Assembly: GCA_947372165.1 (NCBI GenBank)
Contig: CANBSP010000008.1
Location: 1-64,000 of the forward strand
Source: Actinomycetota bacterium
GTDB taxonomy: Bacteria; Actinomycetota; Actinomycetes; Nanopelagicales; Nanopelagicaceae
Direction of reading: 5' to 3'
Length of the DNA: 64,000 nt
This document shows, piece by piece, positions 5,618-45,925 of the stretch (its first letter is position 1; the number at the start of each line of letters is the position of its first letter). The translations under genes and the position numbers were made by a program. The notes under the pieces were generated by a model, which worked only from the letters and a program-made list of their open reading frames with translations, did not search any database and was not told the origin of the DNA.

Positions 5618-6780
5618 CCGCCAGAGACCGAATCATCAATCGTGATCGCCGGAATTTCATCTGGATCTTTGAGCCAACCATCCGGAAGTGTGGGAGGACG
5701 TCCATGGGACTTTCGTCCACGAGGTGCTTCAGAGACTGCAGTTGGATATGGCTGATCATCGAGTTGGCCAAGGAGATGCTCTAACTCGCCAAGGGAAGCA
5801 ACCATTCCTAATGAGGATCGAATTTCGCGAGGAACAGTAAAACCTTTGAGGTACCAGGCCATATGTTTGCGAAGGTCACGCATCGCCCGGCCTTCAGCCT
5901 CAAAAAATTCTACAAGGAGATGTCCGTGACGAATCATGACATCGCGCACTTCATAGAGTGATGGTTCAGATTTTGTGGAATCACCACGAAGGGAGCGAAC
6001 AAGATCGGCGAAGAGCCATGGGCGACCAAGGCATCCTCGGCCCACGACAACTCCTGCGCAGCCGGTCTGCGCCATCATTCGAGCGCCATCTTCCCCGCTC
6101 CAGATATCGCCATTTCCAAGTACCGGCACGCCGGTCGGCTTGAGGTGTTCAACGAGTGTGGCGATCTTCGACCAATCTGCTTCACCGTCATACATCTGTT
6201 CGGCGGTACGTGCATGCAAGGCAACCCAGGCAACACCAGCATTTGCGGCGGAAGTCGCAGCATCTAAATAGGTGTGATGGTCGCTATCGATGCCAACGCG
6301 CATCTTTACTGTGACCGGAACTCCGTAAGGCTTCGCCGCATCCACCGACGCTTTAACGATATTTTCAAAGAGTCGACGCTTATAGGGAAGAGCTGCTCCC
6401 CCACCACGTCGTGTCACTTTAGGCACTGGGCAGCCAAAGTTGAGATCAATGTGATCGGCGAGATTCTCTTCCATCAACATGGTGATGGCTTTCCCGACGA
6501 CAATAGGATCGACTGCATAGAGTTGAACAGATCGAGGTGACTCACCTTTGCCTGGCGTGATGAGGCGAAGAGTCTCTGGGTGGCGTTCAATCAACGCACG
6601 TGCAGTCACCATCTCGGAGACAAAGAGACCAGCTCCTTGCTCGCGACAGAGTGTACGAAATGCCGAATTAGTAATTCCAGCCATAGGCGCGAGAACGACG
6701 GGGGTATCGAGCACCACCTCGTTATTGGCGAACCCCCCATTTGCAATAGGAAGTCGAAGCGGTGCAGGTTGAGTTAGCAC
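5614..6780 (-). CDS. dusB: tRNA-dihydrouridine synthase (DusB family)
   Basis: FMN-dependent enzyme that reduces uridines in the D loop of tRNA using NADPH. Motifs seen in order: [12 protein letters not shown] (FMN site), the [11 protein letters not shown] segment with the catalytic Cys, [17 protein letters not shown], and the GNGDIW and [10 protein letters not shown] flavin-phosphate segments. I place the start at GTG 6780, which overlaps the glyS stop as GTGCTAA; an upstream in-frame GTG at 6804 would give a 31-base overlap and adds only eight residues with no family similarity. Neither has a clear ribosome site. The C-terminal 60 residues are a basic, low-complexity extension. Confidence 0.92.
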
Positions 6781-36543: not shown

Positions 36544-37557
36544 TTAGGCTTTAATGAGTCCAGACGCCCGCTGAGTGAAGGTTGTAGGCACTACTCGTTC
36601 CTCATAGCCACTCTTCACGCCATCAATTCGATCAAAGAGTAATTGGGCCGCGATGCTGCCCATTGCGTGAATATCCTGCGTCACCAACGAAATGGCTGGA
36701 TCAAGGAGATCGGCGAGCGGAAGTTCGTCGAAGCCAATGAGGGCGATCTTGTGATGGAGGTTCTTTGAACGCAGGACTCGGATGGCCACAAGAGTGATGA
36801 CGTTCTGAGCGGTGAAGATCGCGGTTGGTCGATTCTGCCTTGAGAGGAGATCGATCAAGAATGCTTCGATCTCAGATTCGTTGTGAAACCCTAATTTTTC
36901 TAGCTCTTTATCAACCGGTATCTTCGAAGATCTCAAAGCCTTTCGGTAGCCGTTATGACGTTCTTTTGCTGTGAAGATACCTTCAAAGTCACCAAGAAAT
37001 GCAATCCGCTTATGGCCAAGGCTAATAAGTGAAGTGACCGCTTCCTCAACACCCTCGCTATTTGTCGCGGTTACGGCATCGGAGTTGAAATTCAGCGCCG
37101 GACGATCGATAAAGACGAATTGCGTACCTGCCCTTCGCTCATTCACCAAGTACTTATGGTCATCCGATGATGGGACGACGATAAGTCCATCAACTCGACG
37201 TGCAATAAAGCCATTGATCAACTCACGCTCACGTGCCGAGTCACCGTCAAGGCTGCCAGTCATCACTTCTATGCCCCGCGCTCTCGCGCAATCTTCAACC
37301 GTTCGATGAAGTGCTGCCGAGAACGGGTTGGAGACATTTTCAAGTAAGAGCCCAATGGTCTTGGTGCGCCCGCCCAATCGGCGAAGTGATCCAGCGGTGA
37401 GGTTATGTCGATAGTGAAGCTTCTTCACGGCACGTTCGACCTTGGTCACGAGTTCTGGGTTTACTCCAGATTCGCCATTGACTACTCGCGAGACGGTCTT
37501 AAGGCTCGTCCCAGATTCCTTGGCGACATCCAACATCGTTGGACGGTTGCGGTTCAT
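36544..37557 (-). CDS. LacI-family transcriptional regulator
   Basis: A 337-residue sugar-responsive regulator: N-terminal helix-turn-helix (TMLDVAKESGTSLKTVSRVVN, then hinge region), followed by a periplasmic-binding-like sugar domain (TIGLLLENVSNPFSA onwards). It is the last gene of the minus-strand sugar ABC operon, eleven bases after the ATPase gene, so it probably controls that operon. Candidate operators with AACG cores lie upstream of the first gene (see 40592-40701). Confidence 0.92.
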   Translation of the reverse strand: MNRNRPTMLDVAKESGTSLKTVSRVVNGESGVNPELVTKVERAVKKLHYRHNLTAGSLRRLGGRTKTIGLLLENVSNPFSAALHRTVEDCARARGIEVMTGSLDGDSARERELINGFIARRVDGLIVVPSSDDHKYLVNERRAGTQFVFIDRPALNFNSDAVTATNSEGVEEAVTSLISLGHKRIAFLGDFEGIFTAKERHNGYRKALRSSKIPVDKELEKLGFHNESEIEAFLIDLLSRQNRPTAIFTAQNVITLVAIRVLRSKNLHHKIALIGFDELPLADLLDPAISLVTQDIHAMGSIAAQLLFDRIDGVKSGYEERVVPTTFTQRASGLIKA

Positions 37558-37567
37558 GGGTTACAGA

Positions 37568-38353
37568 CTAGATGAGGCCCGTGATCGTTCCAAGGAGTTT
37601 CTCGGCATCAAATGTTGATGTCGGAGCATCAGCGACGATCTTGCCAAGGCGCAGCACAACAATTCTGTCGGTTACTCGAAGAACGTGCGGAAGGGTATGT
37701 GAAATAAAGATGACGCCAAAGCCCTTGGATTTCACTTGCTCAATGATGTTAAGAACTTCACCAGCTTGGCGAGCGCCGAGGTGGTTCGTTGGCTCATCAA
37801 GAAGGATCACCTTCGAAGCCCACGCAACAGATCTGCCAATCGCAACCGCCTGGCGTTGACCACCCGAGAGTTGTGAGACTGAGCGATTAGATTCTGGGAC
37901 TGCGATGCCAACATTTTTGAGATCCTGGAAAGCTCTTTGGTCCATCTCTTTATTGGCAAGAAAGCCGAGTTTGCCGAGTAAACCCTTCTTTACTTCTTCT
38001 CTGCCAAGGAAGACATTTGCAGAAACTGAGAGATGCGGTGCAAGCCCGGACTCTTGATAAAGGGTCTCGATGCCCGCTTCGATCGCATCATGAGGAGTAT
38101 TCCAATGGCGTTGAATGCCATCTAGTAAGACTTCGCCAGAATCTGGGCGATGCGCGCCGGAGAGAACCTTTACTAAGGTGGATTTTCCAGCACCATTATC
38201 GCCGACCAACCCAACAACCTCGCCAGCACGGACTTTCATGCTGACATTGTCGAGAGCGACAACCGAGCCGTAGTTCTTCGAAATATTGCGGACCTCATAT
38301 AGGACTTCTTCAGTTGAAGCAGAAGTTGAGGCAGATGCTGTTGCTGATGACAT
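37568..38353 (-). CDS. Sugar ABC transporter, ATP-binding protein (single cassette)
   Basis: A 261-residue ATPase with Walker A GDNGAGKST, signature LSGGQRQ and Walker B VILLDEPTNHLG. It has one cassette only, unlike the tandem two-cassette RbsA/XylG. I start at ATG 38353 (MSSATASAST), which overlaps the permease stop as TAATG. It energises the adjacent permease. Confidence 0.93.
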   Translation of the reverse strand: MSSATASASTSASTEEVLYEVRNISKNYGSVVALDNVSMKVRAGEVVGLVGDNGAGKSTLVKVLSGAHRPDSGEVLLDGIQRHWNTPHDAIEAGIETLYQESGLAPHLSVSANVFLGREEVKKGLLGKLGFLANKEMDQRAFQDLKNVGIAVPESNRSVSQLSGGQRQAVAIGRSVAWASKVILLDEPTNHLGARQAGEVLNIIEQVKSKGFGVIFISHTLPHVLRVTDRIVVLRLGKIVADAPTSTFDAEKLLGTITGLI

Positions 38354-39363
38354 TAGAGGTCGCCACCTTTCGTCCAATTACGTAATCCTTGAGAAAAGAC
38401 AGCTGCTGCAATCAAGAGTGCAACCACGACCTGCTTCCAGTTTGGCGCTACGCCAATAATGATCAATCCACTTGTCACGGTGGTGAGGATGAGTGAACCG
38501 AGAACGGTGCCAGTGATCTTTCCGACGCCGCCAGCGAGTGCTGCACCGCCGATGACGACCGCTGCGATCGCATCAAGTTCGCCTGATTGACCAGATGAAG
38601 GTGAACCAACGCTGAGACGCAGATAGAGGTAGAAACCAGCCAACCCAGAGAGTGCACCAGAGAGGATATAGACCTTGGTGAGATGGGCTTTAACATTAAT
38701 TCCGGCAGAGCGAGCTGCAAATGAATTTGATCCGATGGCATAGGTATAACGACCGAAACGAGATTTATGTAGATAGAGACCAATGATGACGACAAGGACT
38801 ACAACCACTAATCCTGGACTATTAAAGGGACCGTACTTCGGCACTGTCAGAGCGATTGCGCTATCTGGACCTTCGCCAACAGGTCCGCCGCCGGTAGTCA
38901 CAATGCAGAGACCGCGGAAGGCGCCCAGGGTGGCAAGTGTTGCGACGAACGGAACGATGCGTGCACGTGTAATGAGGAGGGCATTTATTAATCCAATGCC
39001 ACAACCCACCGCAACTGCCACTAAGAGTCCAATTGCCAACGTGGTGTTTTGATTAACGTTATGAGCGGTCAAATTCCGCATCGCAAATGCGGTGACGACG
39101 CCAGAGAAGCCGACAACTGATCCAACAGAGAGATCGATGCCGCCAGTAATAATGACAAAAGTTTCGCCGATTGCCATGAGCACAACGGGGATCCAGTCGG
39201 AGAGGACATTGGCGAATACTGCATTGGTAAAGAAGATGTGGTTCTTCAATGAGAAGAAGGTAACCATCGCTATCAGAACAAGAACCAAGATAAATTGTTG
39301 ATTCTTCAGAAGTCCCTTAGCCCGAGATGCCGGGGTGGGAGCCTGCGTGATTTGAGTAGTCAT
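38353..39363 (-). CDS. Sugar ABC transporter permease (RbsC/XylH family)
   Basis: A 336-residue membrane protein with about ten helices, including the ETFVIITGGIDLSVGSVVG motif and GVAPNWKQVVVALL near the end. Start ATG 39363 (MTTQITQ), with AAAGGAAGAT upstream; the longer frame to 39417 is not supported. It is separated from the binding-protein gene by a hairpin terminator. Confidence 0.93.
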   Translation of the reverse strand: MTTQITQAPTPASRAKGLLKNQQFILVLVLIAMVTFFSLKNHIFFTNAVFANVLSDWIPVVLMAIGETFVIITGGIDLSVGSVVGFSGVVTAFAMRNLTAHNVNQNTTLAIGLLVAVAVGCGIGLINALLITRARIVPFVATLATLGAFRGLCIVTTGGGPVGEGPDSAIALTVPKYGPFNSPGLVVVVLVVIIGLYLHKSRFGRYTYAIGSNSFAARSAGINVKAHLTKVYILSGALSGLAGFYLYLRLSVGSPSSGQSGELDAIAAVVIGGAALAGGVGKITGTVLGSLILTTVTSGLIIIGVAPNWKQVVVALLIAAAVFSQGLRNWTKGGDL

Positions 39364-39420
39364 ATCTTCCTTTACTTTTCCCGAAATTCTAAACCAGTTC
39401 TTGAGAACTAAGAGCAATCT

Positions 39421-39543: not shown

Positions 39544-40539
39544 TTACTTCTGAACGTATGTGTACTTCTTCTTATCTGATGCGTGGGTGTAGATATCGAT
39601 AGCGAAGTTAGGAATCACAACATTCTTCTTGATTCCAGTTGTCTTTCCACCGATGTAATCGACGAGTGTGTCGATTGCAAGCTTTGCTTCCTGTGCAGGA
39701 TCCTGAGCAATAAGAGCTGTGATGACGCGCTTAGCGATCAAATCAACATTCTTCTTATATGCATCGTAACCAACGAGAGCAACCTTGCCGACGAGACCCT
39801 TGGCCTGGATCGCAGCAGCTGCGCCATCAGCATTTGTGCCATCGATAGCGAAGATACCGTTGAGCTTTGGATACTTGGTCAACCAGTTGCTGACGTTTGT
39901 GTTAGCAACAGCAGGCTGTGACTGTGAGTATGCAACATCAACGATTGTGATGTTTGGATACTTAGCAGCGATCTGAGCCTTGAAGCCTTCAAGACGTGCA
40001 ACGTTTGTTGTTGCTGTAGCTGATGTAAGACCAACTGCAACCTGGAACTGCTTTGATGATGAGTACTTGATTGCCTTAGCAATAGCGTCAGCAGCCTTTG
40101 AACCACCATCAGCGTTGTCGCCGGTGATAAATGAGATTACGTTTGTGAGATCGTTAACGTGTGTATCAACGTTCACTACTGGAATCTTAAGAGCGACAGC
40201 CTTAGTGACTGTAGCTTGGAGAGCTGTTGGATCTGTTGGGATGAGAACCAATCCATCTGGCTTCTGTGCAAGAACTGCATCAGCAATTGGAATCTGTGTC
40301 GCTGGTGAGTAGACCGATGGGTCTCCCTGCCATACGAGGTTTACATTCTTAACCTTTGCTTCAGCAATGGCTCCGACCTTCATGGCCTGGAAGAATGGAT
40401 CTGACTCTGCACCCATAACGAATGCGATTGTGAGCTTATTAGCAGCATGTGTTGTTGCTGGAACGACAGCAGCTGCAAGCACTGCTGAAGCACCAATTGC
40501 AACAGCAGCAAGGCTGCGGCGCTTGATTGATGAAGTCAT
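39544..40539 (-). CDS. Sugar ABC transporter substrate-binding protein (RbsB-like)
   Basis: A 331-residue type I binding protein. Signal peptide 1-33 (MTSSIKRRS, hydrophobic core, TTHA cut before ANKLTIAF). There is no lipobox Cys, so it is not a lipoprotein by sequence. The core follows the ribose/galactose family (DPFFQAMKVGAIAEA, DGLVLIPTDP, GTNADGAAAAIQ). Start ATG 40539 with AAAGGG upstream. Codons are strongly biased to a few forms, suggesting very high expression. Confidence 0.93.
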   Translation of the reverse strand: MTSSIKRRSLAAVAIGASAVLAAAVVPATTHAANKLTIAFVMGAESDPFFQAMKVGAIAEAKVKNVNLVWQGDPSVYSPATQIPIADAVLAQKPDGLVLIPTDPTALQATVTKAVALKIPVVNVDTHVNDLTNVISFITGDNADGGSKAADAIAKAIKYSSSKQFQVAVGLTSATATTNVARLEGFKAQIAAKYPNITIVDVAYSQSQPAVANTNVSNWLTKYPKLNGIFAIDGTNADGAAAAIQAKGLVGKVALVGYDAYKKNVDLIAKRVITALIAQDPAQEAKLAIDTLVDYIGGKTTGIKKNVVIPNFAIDIYTHASDKKKYTYVQK

Positions 40540-40591: not shown

Positions 40592-40624
40592 GACATCGTT
40601 ATCCGAATTCTTGACAACGTTGTC
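40592..40624. promoter_or_regulatory. Candidate LacI-family operators
   Basis: GACAACGTTGTC (40613-40624) is a perfect 12-bp palindrome centred on CG, the form typical of LacI-family sites. GACATCGTTATC (40592-40603) is a weaker relative (4 of 6 pairs). They lie 50-85 bases before the binding-protein gene. Confidence 0.6.
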
Positions 40625-40680
40625 TGGAGAATTAAAGTAGGATTAGGATCTAGTGGCAAGACCACCTACGCTTATTCCAT

Positions 40681-40701
40681 ATAACGATCTGGTAACGGAA
40701 T
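40681..40701 (+). promoter_or_regulatory. TAACG-N6-TAACG motif, copy 1
   Basis: A 21-base motif with two TAACG cores 11 bases apart. An inverted copy lies at 41182-41202 with 18 of 21 positions the same. It lies 41 bases before the 143-residue gene. Confidence 0.6.
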
Positions 40702-40741
40702 CCATGCCAGGTACCGCTAGCCCATTAAAGGAGCGCCCCAC

Positions 40742-41173
40742 ATGACGAGCCCCGACCTCTCCCGCTTTTCGGGCTGGAAGCTCGCCCTCGCCCATCGTTG
40801 GCTAGAAATAGGCGCAGATGAGCTCCTTGCTGCGATCGGAGTCGACTTCGAGGCCTCTCTCTTGGCCCCGCTCCACGCATCAACAGCGACAGAGAGCCCT
40901 TACAAAGAGTATGAATGGGTCATCTTTCAGCACCCGACTATTAAGCCGGGAGTCCTTCACGCTGCCCCGCTCTCAGTAACAGAGGCGCCAGCCTTGTGGG
41001 AGGAATGGTTCTTTGTTGATGAGCAAATGCACCACCACGAGCTTCGCAACCATCCGCATGATGGTGAAGAAGAGATGTGGAAAGGCCACGACGATCTTCA
41101 TCCAGCAGTCGTCCTCGATATTCAATGGCACTACATCAATGATGGGGACCCCCGCCCATACCTGCTCCGCTAG
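40742..41173 (+). CDS. Unrecognised 143-residue protein between two sugar operons
   Basis: I do not recognise the family. The frame is real by its good ribosome site (AAAGGAG nine bases before the ATG at 40742), normal codon use and clear borders. It is soluble, acidic in the second half, with a His-rich region near 99-118 (MHHHELRNHPHD, then GHDDLHP) that could bind metal, and several Trp. It has no signal peptide or membrane helix. It lies between the divergent operons and is flanked by the two 21-base motifs, so it may be coregulated with sugar uptake. Function unknown. Confidence 0.7.
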   Translation: MTSPDLSRFSGWKLALAHRWLEIGADELLAAIGVDFEASLLAPLHASTATESPYKEYEWVIFQHPTIKPGVLHAAPLSVTEAPALWEEWFFVDEQMHHHELRNHPHDGEEEMWKGHDDLHPAVVLDIQWHYINDGDPRPYLLR

Positions 41174-41181
41174 ATAAGGGC

Positions 41182-41202
41182 ATTTCGTTACCAAAACGTT
41201 AT
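41182..41202 (-). promoter_or_regulatory. TAACG-N6-TAACG motif, copy 2
   Basis: Reverse-strand copy of the motif at 40681-40701 (18 of 21 identical). It contains AAAACGTTAT, 8 of 10 palindromic. It lies 163 bases before the second binding-protein gene. Confidence 0.6.
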
Positions 41203-41364
41203 CTTTTAGATCGACCGGACCTGAGCCTGCGCAGCAAAAAATCAGGACTCGCCCCTAGCCGAAAAGTTTGCATCGGACTAGATTTACGGCGCTCATCATT
41301 CGAACCCATGGTCAATGAAGATTTGGCCCGATTTCTGAGCACCTTTCGAAAGGTACATATACAT

Positions 41365-42438
41365 ATGTTCAAGCGCCGTCACGCGGTCTCAGCACTCGCT
41401 GCTGCAGCACTCGCAGTAACAGGTTTTGTAGCAACAACCCCAGCACACGCTGCTGCAGGTTTTGTTGGCGTCATCCTTCCAGATGCTGCGTCATCAAACC
41501 GTTGGGAAAGTGCTGACCGTCCATTCCTCACAGCAGCTTTCAAGGCAGCTGGAGTAACAGCAAAGATTCAGAATGCAAATGGCGATAAGGCCGCATTCGC
41601 AACTATCGCTGACCAAATGCTCACACAGGGCGCAAAGGTCCTCGTCATGGTTAACCTCGATTCAGCATCAGCTAAGGCTGTTCAGGACAAGGCAAAGAAG
41701 CAGGGCGTACCAACAATTGACTACGACCGCCTCACACTTAACGGTTCAGAGTCATACTACGTTTCATTCGATAACACTGCAGTTGGTGTTCTCCAGGGAA
41801 CAGGCATTGTTAACTGCTTGAAGGCTAAGAGCGTTAAGAACCCACGCATTGTTTACCTTAATGGTTCACCAACAGATAACAACGCAACACTCTTCGCAAA
41901 GGGATACAAGTCAGTTGTAGATCCTTACCTCAAGGCTAATGGCGGAACCGTCATTGCTGACCAGGCTGTCCCAGGTTGGGATAACGTCCAGGGTGGAACA
42001 ATCTTCGAGCAGATGCTCACAAAGGCTGGCGGAAAGCTTGATGCAGTTGTATCAGCTAACGAAGGTCTTGGACTTGCAGCAGTAGCTGTTCTCAAGAAGA
42101 ACGGCCTCAACGGCAAGGTCTGCGTATCTGGTCAGGATGCATCTGATGCTGGTCTCGCAGCGATCCTCACAGGCGATCTCTCAAACACTGTCTACAAGGC
42201 AATCAAGGCTGAAGCTAACGCAACAGCAGCTCTTGCAGTCTCACTCTTCAAGGGTCAGAAGGCAACTGCAGCTAAGGGTTCAGTCAACAATGGCACAGTC
42301 AACGTTCCATCAGTACTTCTCGTACCGGTCGGAATCACAAAGGCTAACGTCAAGGTTGTCATCGCAGATGGCTTCACAACTCGTGCCAAGGTTTGCGCAA
42401 TCGCAACTGAGGCAGTTTGTAAGGCTGCAGGTCTCTAA
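41365..42438 (+). CDS. xylF: Xylose-type ABC transporter substrate-binding protein
   Basis: A 357-residue type I binding protein of the XylF/ChvE branch. Signal peptide 1-32 (MFKRRH, then an Ala-rich core and PAHA cut site); no lipobox Cys. Core segments: GVILPDAASSNRWESADRP, PTIDYDRL, YLNGSPTDNNATLFAKGY, VVSANEGLGLAAV, VSGQDAS. The D-xylose role is inferred from family and from xylA nearby. Start ATG 41365 after AAAGGT; an upstream frame to 41308 lacks family likeness. Confidence 0.9.
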   Translation: MFKRRHAVSALAAAALAVTGFVATTPAHAAAGFVGVILPDAASSNRWESADRPFLTAAFKAAGVTAKIQNANGDKAAFATIADQMLTQGAKVLVMVNLDSASAKAVQDKAKKQGVPTIDYDRLTLNGSESYYVSFDNTAVGVLQGTGIVNCLKAKSVKNPRIVYLNGSPTDNNATLFAKGYKSVVDPYLKANGGTVIADQAVPGWDNVQGGTIFEQMLTKAGGKLDAVVSANEGLGLAAVAVLKKNGLNGKVCVSGQDASDAGLAAILTGDLSNTVYKAIKAEANATAALAVSLFKGQKATAAKGSVNNGTVNVPSVLLVPVGITKANVKVVIADGFTTRAKVCAIATEAVCKAAGL

Positions 42439-42565: not shown

Positions 42566-43330
42566 GTGTCTGAGCCGATTCTTTCACTTCGGAATATCAA
42601 TAAATCTTTTGGTGCAGTACACGTACTTCGAGGCGTGGACCTCGATATCTACCCTGGCCAGGTCACTGCACTTGTCGGTGATAACGGCGCAGGTAAGTCC
42701 ACTCTTATTAAATGTATCGCTGGTATCTACACACCAGAGAGCGGCGACTATCACTTTGATGGAAAGCCGGTAACTGTCAGTGGCCCGCGTGATGCAACCG
42801 CTCTTGGTATTGAAGTCGTGTATCAAGACCTTGCACTCTGCGACAACCTCGACATTGTTCATAATATGTTTCTGGGGCGCGAGAAGAAAAAGGGCGTCAC
42901 CTTAGATGAAGCAACCATGGAGAAGCTGGCGCGTGAGACTCTCGATGGCCTCAGTGTTCGTACCGTTAAATCTATTCGTCAGACTGTTTCATCACTCTCG
43001 GGTGGACAACGTCAGACCGTTGCAATTGCCCGAGCAGTATTGTGGAATAACAAGGTCGTCATCTTGGATGAACCAACCGCAGCTCTTGGCGTCTCTCAAA
43101 CTGAGCAAGTACTTCACTTAGTGCGACGTCTTGCCGATGCCGGCATCGCCGTTGTTCTCATCTCACATAACCTGACAGATGTCTTCCAAGTCGCAGATAA
43201 CATCGCCGCTCTCTATCTCGGCACGATGGCTGCTCAAGTAAAGCTGAACGAAGTCTCGACCAACCAAGTTATCGAACTCATCACCACCGGAAAATCAGCT
43301 GGCGTTACGAAGGCGGAGGCAAGCAAATAA
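42566..43330 (+). CDS. xylG: Xylose-type ABC transporter ATPase (single cassette)
   Basis: A 254-residue ATPase with Walker A GDNGAGKST, signature SLSGGQRQ and Walker B VILDEPTAALG. It has one cassette, about half the length of E. coli XylG. GTG start with AGGGG upstream; its TAA overlaps the permease ATG by one base. Confidence 0.92.
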   Translation: MSEPILSLRNINKSFGAVHVLRGVDLDIYPGQVTALVGDNGAGKSTLIKCIAGIYTPESGDYHFDGKPVTVSGPRDATALGIEVVYQDLALCDNLDIVHNMFLGREKKKGVTLDEATMEKLARETLDGLSVRTVKSIRQTVSSLSGGQRQTVAIARAVLWNNKVVILDEPTAALGVSQTEQVLHLVRRLADAGIAVVLISHNLTDVFQVADNIAALYLGTMAAQVKLNEVSTNQVIELITTGKSAGVTKAEASK

Positions 43331-44544
43331 TGTCTATCGATACCCCCACTCCTACCCTCAAGTCAGTGCTCAACGATTACTGGTCTCGAGTAAAATCCGG
43401 AGATATTGGCTCGCTGCCGGCAGTGCTCGGTTTGATTGCTCTTTGTGCGGTCTTCACCTCGATGAGTTCCTTCTTCCTCACTCCTGGAAATTTCGCGAAC
43501 CTCCTCACTCAAGCTGCTGGCGTGATTGTTATCGCCATGGGCCTGATCTTTGTGCTCTTACTTGGCGATATTGATCTCTCTGCGGGTTATTCTGCAGGTG
43601 TCTCCGGCGCGATCCTCGTTATTCTCGTAACAAACCATCATTGGGGCTGGGCGCCAGCGCTCGCAGTCTCGATTGTCGCTGGCATTCTGATGGGGCTGGT
43701 CATTGGTTCGCTCGTCTCTTATCTCGGGGTTCCCTCTTTCGTAGTGACCCTTGCAATGTTCTTAGCCTTCCAAGGAATTCTCCTTCTCCTTGCAGGTGAA
43801 GGTGGAACAATTCCGATCACCGACAAGACTGTTGTTGCTATTGAAAATAGCAACATGACGCCGCTGATTAGCTGGGCCTTCTACCTCGGCGCAAGCGCGC
43901 TGTACATCCTCTCTGGTCTTCGGAAGATGGCGGTACGCCGCAAAGCGGGCCTCAAGAGTGAACTTATTCAACTCTGGGCACTGAAAACTTTCGGCCTCCT
44001 GGCTATTTGCGCCGGTGCGGTCTACTCGCTCAATCTAGAGCGTTCAAACAATGTCGCTCTCGTCTCGCTCAAGGGAATTCCCGTTGTCGTTGCATTGATT
44101 CTGGCGATCTTGGTAGTCGGAACTTTCTTCTTGGGTCGCACCTCTTTTGGGCGCCATCTCTATGCAGTAGGCGGCAATGCCGAGGCAGCACGTCGCTCTG
44201 GTATTAACGTAAAGCGCGTTCGGTTGATGTCATTTGTTATCTGCTCAACACTTGCAGCAATTGCTGGATTGATCTTTGTATCACGTGCAAACTCAGTCTC
44301 CCCAACAACTGGTGGAAATGCGACCTTGCTCTATGCAGTAGGCGCGGCCGTTATTGGTGGCACTTCCCTCTTTGGTGGCAAGGGCAAGATGCGCGATGCC
44401 ATCTTGGGCGGCCTCGTTGTGGCAGTGATTGATAATGGAATGGGACTTCTTGGATATGCAGCAGGTATTAAGTACATCGTGACTGGATTAGTTCTGCTGG
44501 TCTCAGCTGGTGTCGATGCTCTCTCACGCAAGGGCTCTTCTTAA
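43330..44544 (+). CDS. xylH: Xylose-type ABC transporter permease
   Basis: A 404-residue membrane protein with about ten to twelve helices. The MGLIFVLLLGDIDLSAGYSAG segment, GRHLYAVGGNAEAARRSGINV and GTSLFGGKGKMRDAI are typical of the XylH/FrcC family. Translationally coupled to the ATPase gene. Confidence 0.93.
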   Translation: MSIDTPTPTLKSVLNDYWSRVKSGDIGSLPAVLGLIALCAVFTSMSSFFLTPGNFANLLTQAAGVIVIAMGLIFVLLLGDIDLSAGYSAGVSGAILVILVTNHHWGWAPALAVSIVAGILMGLVIGSLVSYLGVPSFVVTLAMFLAFQGILLLLAGEGGTIPITDKTVVAIENSNMTPLISWAFYLGASALYILSGLRKMAVRRKAGLKSELIQLWALKTFGLLAICAGAVYSLNLERSNNVALVSLKGIPVVVALILAILVVGTFFLGRTSFGRHLYAVGGNAEAARRSGINVKRVRLMSFVICSTLAAIAGLIFVSRANSVSPTTGGNATLLYAVGAAVIGGTSLFGGKGKMRDAILGGLVVAVIDNGMGLLGYAAGIKYIVTGLVLLVSAGVDALSRKGSS

Positions 44545-44671: not shown

Positions 44672-44758
44672 ACGATCAGTTTAGGCGATGAGCCCCACTC
44701 CACCAAACCGAGTTAATCCCCCCTTCCAAAGCCGAGCAAAAAGTTGGAGAATCCATAC

Positions 44759-45925
44759 ATGACACCATCATCCTTCACGCCACAGCCTTCCGATAAGTTC
44801 ACCTTTGGACTCTGGACCGTCGGTTGGCAGGCTGCAGACCCATTCGGCGCCGCAACTCGCGCCGCCATAGATCCAATTCGAACAGTCAATGAGTTGGCTA
44901 AGCGAGGCGCCTACGGCGTCACCTTCCACGATGATGATTTGATTCCATTCGGTGCCAACGATGCCGATCGTGATGTGCAGATCGCCCGCTTTAAGAAGGC
45001 GCTTGCCGATACCGGAATGAAAGTTCCGATGGCGACCACAAATCTCTTCTCGCACCCAATCTTTAAAGATGGTGCCTTGACGTCAAACGATCGAGATATC
45101 CGTCGTTATGCAATTCGCAAGGTCATGCGCAATATCGATCTCGCTGTTGATCTTGGTGCAGAGATCTATGTCTGTTGGGGCGGTCGCGAAGGCGCTGAGA
45201 CAGATGCTGGCAAGGATCCGATCGTTGCCCTCGAGCGTTACCGTGAAGGTTTCAATATTCTTGGGCAATACGTTATTGACCAGGGTTACAACCTGAAATT
45301 TGCCATCGAGCCAAAGCCAAATGAACCTCGTGGCGATATCTACCTACCAACAATTGGCCATGCCCTCGGATTTATCCAAACACTAGATCATCCCGAAATG
45401 GTGGGACTCAATCCCGAGGTCGGCCACGAGCAGATGGCGGGATTGAACTTTGTGCACGGCATCGCTCAAGCACTCTTCCAAGGCAAGCTCTTCCATATCG
45501 ATCTCAACGGTCAGCATGGACCTAAGTTCGATCAAGATTTAGTCTTTGGTCATGGCGATCTCAAGAGCGCCTTCTTCTTAGTTGATCTCCTCGAGCGTTA
45601 CAACTATCAAGGGCCTAAGCACTTCGACTATAAGCCAATGCGCAATGAGGATGATGCCGGGGTATGGCAATCGGCTGAAAATAATATGCGCACCTATCTT
45701 GGACTTCGCGAACGTGCAAAAGCATTCCGTGCTGATCCTCGAGTGATCGATGCGATGAAGGCAGCTCGCCTTGATCAGCTAGCGGTTCCTACGCTTGCAG
45801 CGGGTGAGAGCTGGCGCGACCTTGGCGATCCATCCTTTGATCTTGAAAGCGCTGCGCTGCGTGGCTCGGGCTACGAGCTCCTTGATCAACTCGCAATCGA
45901 GCATTTGATGGGATTTAGCGGCTAA
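44759..45925 (+). CDS. xylA: Xylose isomerase
   Basis: Converts D-xylose to D-xylulose. The 388-residue product is the class I actinobacterial type: catalytic His57 ([11 protein letters not shown]), the [15 protein letters not shown] metal site and [11 protein letters not shown]. Start ATG 44759 with TTGGAG eight bases upstream; a TTG five codons earlier is unlikely. No xylulokinase (xylB) lies in the window. Confidence 0.97.

Follow-up and report, generated by a model that had tools for sequence, protein, structure and literature searches.

The TAACG sites that lie between two sugar operons in this stretch of DNA are a real, conserved regulatory site, and one more general than first thought. 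Judging from their sequence and distribution, they probably belong to a genus-wide family of sites for an OmpR-family regulator, most likely MtrA, which would activate sugar uptake, with a LacI-type product adding repression at the left operon. An earlier note on this DNA had read the sites as an operator pair around the 143-residue gene between the operons, with the product of the neighbouring LacI-type gene as the likely regulator of all of them. That one regulator acts on both transport operons is very probably correct, whereas its identification with the LacI-type product is very unlikely, and the pair is not private to this region but drawn from the genus-wide family. It is MtrA as the binder, activation as the effect and the signal answered that we infer.

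The genome has a size of 1.36 Mb in 21 contigs, and the public records of its relatives are of metagenome-assembled actinobacteria; genome size, a rhodopsin and the related records together suggest that the group is of the freshwater acI type. Such bacteria are difficult to cultivate, so that their regulation is mostly unread, and a search of the open-licence literature yielded no paper that deals with how they regulate sugar genes. A cis-regulatory code that can be read from the sequence offers a testable global sugar regulon together with a candidate regulator; an OmpR-family regulon based on direct repeats is of a known kind, whereas the assignment to these bacteria of a sugar regulon with an MtrA-type site appears new within that literature.

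The two sites and the promoters that they occupy

In the window (the whole stretch of 64,000 nucleotides that was analysed), the 21-bp motif is present exactly as the earlier note had described it, with ATAACGATCTGGTAACGGAAT on the plus strand at 40681-40701 and ATAACGTTTTGGTAACGAAAT as the reverse complement of 41182-41202, the two being identical at 18 of 21 positions. Each copy contains two TAACG cores 11 bp apart, arranged as a direct repeat and not as a palindrome. The direct-repeat sites themselves, both ATAACG-N5-GTAACG by motif search, occupy 40681-40697 on the plus strand, for the left (sbp) operon, and 41186-41202 on the minus strand, for the right (xyl) operon; the former recurs at the same place in the sbp promoters of relatives and the latter is conserved in xylF promoters. 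No other position in the 64-kb window matches RTAACGN5GTAACG with zero mismatches. The weight-matrix scores are 26.1 and 22.2 bits for the window sites and 12.6 bits for the next best position in the window, although the matrix was trained on 75 intergenic sites from the genus, both window sites among them, so that the scores serve as a ranking and not as an independent test.

The left operon is encoded on the minus strand and starts with the sugar-binding protein gene sbp (39544-40539; PF13407), followed by a sugar ABC transporter permease (38353-39417; PF02653), a sugar ABC transporter ATPase with a single ABC domain according to the domain search (37568-38377) and an RbsR-like regulator of the LacI family (36544-37557; PF00356 and PF13377), whose gene closes the sbp operon in eight loci. 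This operon was found in four of the 32 genomes of the genus by a search with the binding protein (E <= 1e-60), and four further loci from the genome collection bring the number of loci to eight; the gene order lacI-ATPase-permease-sbp with a divergent small gene is kept in all of them. Alignment of the eight loci places the -10 box of the sbp promoter, TTTAAT, at 40631-40636 and its -35 box, TTGCCA, at 40654-40659, both on the minus strand, with a TTG-type -35, a 17-nt spacer and TNTAAT in most of the loci. A TAACG-type site is located about 21 nt upstream of the -35 box in 8/8 sbp promoters, the left site of the window being 44 nt upstream of the -10 box; it is a direct repeat in six loci (five besides this genome) and inverted in two. 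At these two loci (L212, around 5930-5965, and L214, around 5910-5945) the inverted form ATAAC-N6-GTTAT, as TATAAC-N6-GTTATA or near to it, stands at the position of the direct repeat, with the distal half-site flipped.

Both palindromes that had been reported nearby were also found. The first, GACAACGTTGTC at 40613-40624, lies directly downstream of the sbp -10 box, as in 8/8 sbp promoters, and is a probable LacI-type operator, whereas the second, GACATCGTTATC at 40592-40603, is imperfect, is 21 bp from the first and is a probable second operator from motif reading and the eight-locus alignment. The palindrome GACAWCGTTGTC is positioned just downstream of the sbp -10 box in all eight loci, and in L208 and L213 a second palindrome overlaps the -35 box. 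Overlap with the likely start point, and in these two loci with the -35 box, is as expected of a repressor, and the LacI-type product is the probable repressor at the GACAWCGTTGTC palindromes of its own operon. As in other LacI-family operators, these palindromes share a central CG and overlap the likely start of the lacI-containing operon; they are separate from the TAACG sites and are seen at the lacI-sbp type of operon only, and none of the 17 xylF promoters contains the palindrome with fewer than three mismatches.

The right operon, on the plus strand, comprises xylF, a xylose-type binding protein gene (41365-42438; PF13407, with xylF as the best NCBIfam match, below the cut-off), a xylG-like ATPase with a single ABC domain by domain search (42566-43330), a xylH-like permease (43330-44544; PF02653) and xylA, a xylose isomerase of the Arthrobacter type (44744-45925; TIGR02631, 629 bits against a cut-off of 447). 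Within the genus, xylF was detected in 23 of the 32 genomes, and the exact direct repeat is present in 16 of 17 xylF promoters, the seventeenth (G003) having a degenerate form; the site is thus not missing from the orthologous operons of relatives, an absence that the earlier note would have counted against its proposal. The -10-like hexamer of the xylF promoter in the window, TAGATT at 41279-41284 on the plus strand, is placed by a TAnnnT conserved in the 17 promoters and lies 76 nt downstream of the site; across the 17 promoters the distance from the end of the site to TAnnnT is 32, 54 or 76 nt, in 22-bp steps. By eye, a good -35 box is apparently absent from the xylF promoters, which fits dependence on an activator. 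In one clade (L027, L030-L035, L038 and L039) a conserved inverted pair TGTCCGA...TCGGA is located between the site and the -10 box upstream of xylF, and is possibly the operator of a xylose-specific regulator. The sugar transporter ATPases of the two operons (37568-38377 and 42566-43330) are single-domain proteins of 254-269 residues; ATPases of the RbsA/XylG type have two ABC domains and about 500 residues.

Recurrence of the site in the genus

Over the 32 genomes of the genus, the pattern RTAACR-N5-RTAACR gave 123 matches, compared with 70 for the reversed pattern used as a control (Wilcoxon p = 8e-4), and in this genome the corresponding numbers are 8 and 3. Six of the eight matches in this genome are intergenic and adjoin carbohydrate genes; two of these are the window sites, and the other four are found at a glgX-type debranching enzyme gene, at a LacI-type regulator with a sugar-binding protein, at a ROK regulator with a sugar isomerase-like gene and at a binding protein near an amylase-like gene. 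The remaining two lie within guaB and within a permease gene, and these recurrent matches in coding sequence are attributed to chance or codon effects.

For 91 matches, drawn from 19 genomes, the flanking sequence was inspected, and 75 of these matches are intergenic by a simple reading of open reading frames, one of the 75 having been re-assigned by hand. As the 75 sites include many orthologous copies, the counts are given as 35 independent groups. Genes with a Pfam carbohydrate assignment lie downstream of 21 of these groups, and include binding proteins, sugar-type permeases and ATPases, regulators of the LacI, ROK and SorC types, glycosidases of the GH1, GH2 and GH42 families, alpha-amylase and glycogen genes. 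The other 14 groups consist of three at binding-protein-like genes without a Pfam match, one at an ambiguous dehydrogenase, six at something else and four with no gene in reach. The spacer was left free in the search pattern, yet it is biased to NTTTG, and at some binding-protein genes the orientation of the site is reversed relative to the gene. A site between glgA and glgC, 2 nt from the glgA start and with an atypical spacer, is kept in four genomes, and it is uncertain whether it is a true member of the family.

Three promoters (L103, around 2067-2094; L141, around 2046-2073; L152, around 2037-2064), each ahead of a gene for a monosaccharide-type permease, carry three RTAACR units in tandem at an 11-bp period. 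Rhodopsin was considered as a conserved target and rejected: the strong site that lies 132 nt upstream of the rhodopsin gene in one genome, G022 (L146, 2091-2107), has no equally strong counterpart in the other rhodopsin upstream regions scanned.

Candidate regulators and the proposed mechanism

Direct repeats with an 11-bp period are typical of response regulators of the OmpR family, for which inverted repeats are unusual. This genome encodes four regulators of the family, namely a PhoP/RegX3-like protein, GlnR, MtrA and a fourth, PhoP-like protein, the PhoP-like names having been given by eye. MtrA matches the NCBIfam MtrA model with 350 bits against a cut-off of 300, its recognition helix differs little from that of M. 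tuberculosis MtrA, and mtrA is present in all near-complete genomes except G017, in which a contig edge falls inside the gene. A histidine kinase gene (MtrB) follows directly after mtrA, and the locus (L240, G000:C6:72500-80500) reads by eye as ahcY-mtrA-mtrB followed by comF-like and secA-like genes. The usual third component of the MtrAB-LpqB system is encoded by lpqB, which at the mtrA locus of this genome is not downstream of mtrB, so that our claim is one of MtrA-type regulation and not of a complete MtrAB-LpqB system.

The MtrA consensus of C. glutamicum, (A/G)TAACAATttn(A/G)TAACAAT, is given in the review by Bott and Brocker (PMC3353115), according to which MtrA activates from sites upstream of the -35 box and represses from sites near the -10 box. 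Among the 35 non-redundant sites of the genus, the majority base agrees with this consensus at all six free positions (A, T, T and T after the first core, A and T after the second), the core positions being uninformative since they were fixed by the search pattern. The sites here thus share with those of C. glutamicum the (A/G)TAAC direct repeat, the 11-bp period, the T-rich spacer and the AT after the second core, and the two systems also have in common that both MtrA and MtrB are encoded and that activating sites lie upstream of the -35 box (PMC3353115). The differences concern the targets, which in C. glutamicum, where their function is known, comprise osmoprotectant carriers, cell-wall peptidases and rpf2, whereas the sites here precede genes for sugar uptake, for sugar regulators and for glycosidases, and possibly glycogen genes, and the gene after mtrB, which is comF-like here and not lpqB. 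Neither the exact matches of this genome nor its mtrA locus include an exact site in front of an established type of MtrA target (cell-wall enzymes, osmoprotectant carriers and mtrA itself), so the regulon would be strongly rewired. The MtrA of Streptomyces coelicolor recognizes a direct repeat of a similar type, GTAACC-N5-GTAACC, and binds upstream of citrate synthase genes; the targets described for it are central carbon genes, sugar transporters not being reported among them, whereas the sites here are found at sugar uptake genes (PMC12323332).

With MtrA as the preferred binder, a regulator dimer would bind head to tail on the two RTAACR units, 11 bp apart and upstream of the -35 box, on one helix face relative to the -10 box, and would thereby activate transcription of the sugar-uptake operon that follows. 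Sugar-specific repression would be added at the left operon by the LacI-type product, from the palindromes overlapping the likely transcription start, giving a logic of global activator AND NOT local repressor. The distances from site to -10 box (44 nt at sbp; 32, 54 and 76 nt at xylF) are close to whole helical turns apart, and such phasing would point to binding on one face upstream of RNA polymerase, and hence to activation; this evidence is suggestive, the three xylF classes representing few independent lineages.

Elsewhere, MtrAB is a regulator of the cell wall and of osmotic stress. It is plausible, though short of probable, that in this group MtrAB has been rewired to a global activator of sugar uptake, and perhaps of glycogen metabolism, taking over a role that in other actinomycetes belongs to GlnR and allowing the loss of GlnR. 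If MtrA does bind the sites, they would be an example of how a regulon is rewired in bacteria with reduced genomes, and the genomes with and without detectable GlnR would serve as a natural experiment.

The alternative that survives best is that the sites are bound by another of the OmpR-family regulators (the PhoP/RegX3-like one of L047 or the PhoP-like one of L050), or by a regulator from outside that family, and that this binder is the global sugar regulator. We consider this unlikely but of some weight, since OmpR-type genes of L047 and L050 are present in most genomes of the genus and the inverted variants of L212 and L214 would suit a more flexible dimer, whereas the known sites of the better-studied relatives of these two regulators, repeats of the GTTCACC and TCACAG types, fit the consensus less well than does the MtrA site.

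GlnR is a weaker candidate. Its boxes in actinomycetes, GTnAC-n6-GTnAC, resemble the TAACG sites in being GTnAC-type direct repeats with an 11-bp period, and 13 out of 20 genes for carbohydrate ABC transporters have a promoter that GlnR binds (PMC10704036), so that both the type of box and the type of target would fit. This genome also has a clear glnR gene (G000:C7:21908-22612; closest structure 8hih, E 6e-85), which adjoins mshD. However, GlnR was detected in only 13 of the 32 genomes and in nine of the 16 better ones, and eight genomes without detectable GlnR contain 25 intergenic sites of the same pattern, which indicates that the sugar sites are independent of GlnR. By eye and by pattern, GlnR-like arrays are found at amtB in most GlnR-positive genomes and are missing in 11 of 12 negative ones, which supports the view that GlnR has truly been lost. 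At the amtB locus of this genome (L166), which has such arrays, the sugar matrix detects no site. GlnR as a necessary binder was therefore rejected, the GlnR-less genomes having kept their sugar sites, and that the sites are GlnR boxes is improbable. The patchy occurrence of GlnR in the genus, together with the amtB arrays (loci L160-L188), is in itself a natural experiment on the loss of a nitrogen regulator.

The LacI-type product, which the earlier note had favoured, is less probable still as the binder of the TAACG sites. It is encoded within the left operon, the central CG of LacI operators is common to TAACG, and 41192-41203 is two positions off GACAWCGTTRTC. The sites are, however, direct repeats without the form of a palindrome with a central CG, and they are kept in genomes in which the LacI operon was not detected (the operon in four of 32 genomes, xylF in 23 of 32), whereas separate LacI operators are present in 8/8 sbp promoters and, with fewer than three mismatches, in no xylF promoter; the detection of the operon in no more than four genomes and its own palindromic operators make this reading very unlikely. 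That the resemblance of the two sites is due to chance or to a duplicated piece of DNA, as the similarity of 18/21 over a short stretch and the 70 control matches might suggest (the bare pattern also arises randomly, as in the guaB and permease coding matches), is already refuted by the footprints and retains next to no probability, since in relatives where the two are not neighbours each site is conserved independently at the promoter to which it belongs.

The small gene and the rearranged block

The gene for the 143-residue protein (40742-41173, plus strand) is an open reading frame divergent to sbp in eight loci. Its control by the same regulator, which had been proposed from its position between the sites, is not established, as the sites sit at the sbp and xylF promoters and the gene is flanked by both through the position of the block. 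In this genome (34827-45925 of the window) the lacI-sbp block lies between argS and xylF, whereas it is absent there in G017 (L239), in which argS is directly beside xylF; the xylF genes of the two genomes are 98% identical, and their sequences are near-identical from GCATTTCGTTACC to the xylF start. In G003 (L236) the lacI-sbp block and the small gene follow xylA, at the opposite end of the xyl operon. From the comparison with G017 and G003, 41182-41202 belongs to the argS-xylF intergenic region common to relatives and 40681-40701 belongs to the sbp operon, with an approximate junction at 41174-41181 (G017 comparison), where the block of lacI to sbp with the small gene ends and the conserved DNA upstream of xylF starts. 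On this comparison, the two sites are neighbours by REARRANGEMENT, through a block rearrangement in this genome; a tandem duplication followed by reciprocal loss would explain the swap of the block.

The 143-residue protein has no Pfam or NCBIfam match, and fold comparison of its AlphaFold model, which is fair (pLDDT 84.8), gave no convincing relative. In six relatives the family has 34 invariant columns, which include several histidines, and it also occurs without the sbp operon (L005, L006 and L210).
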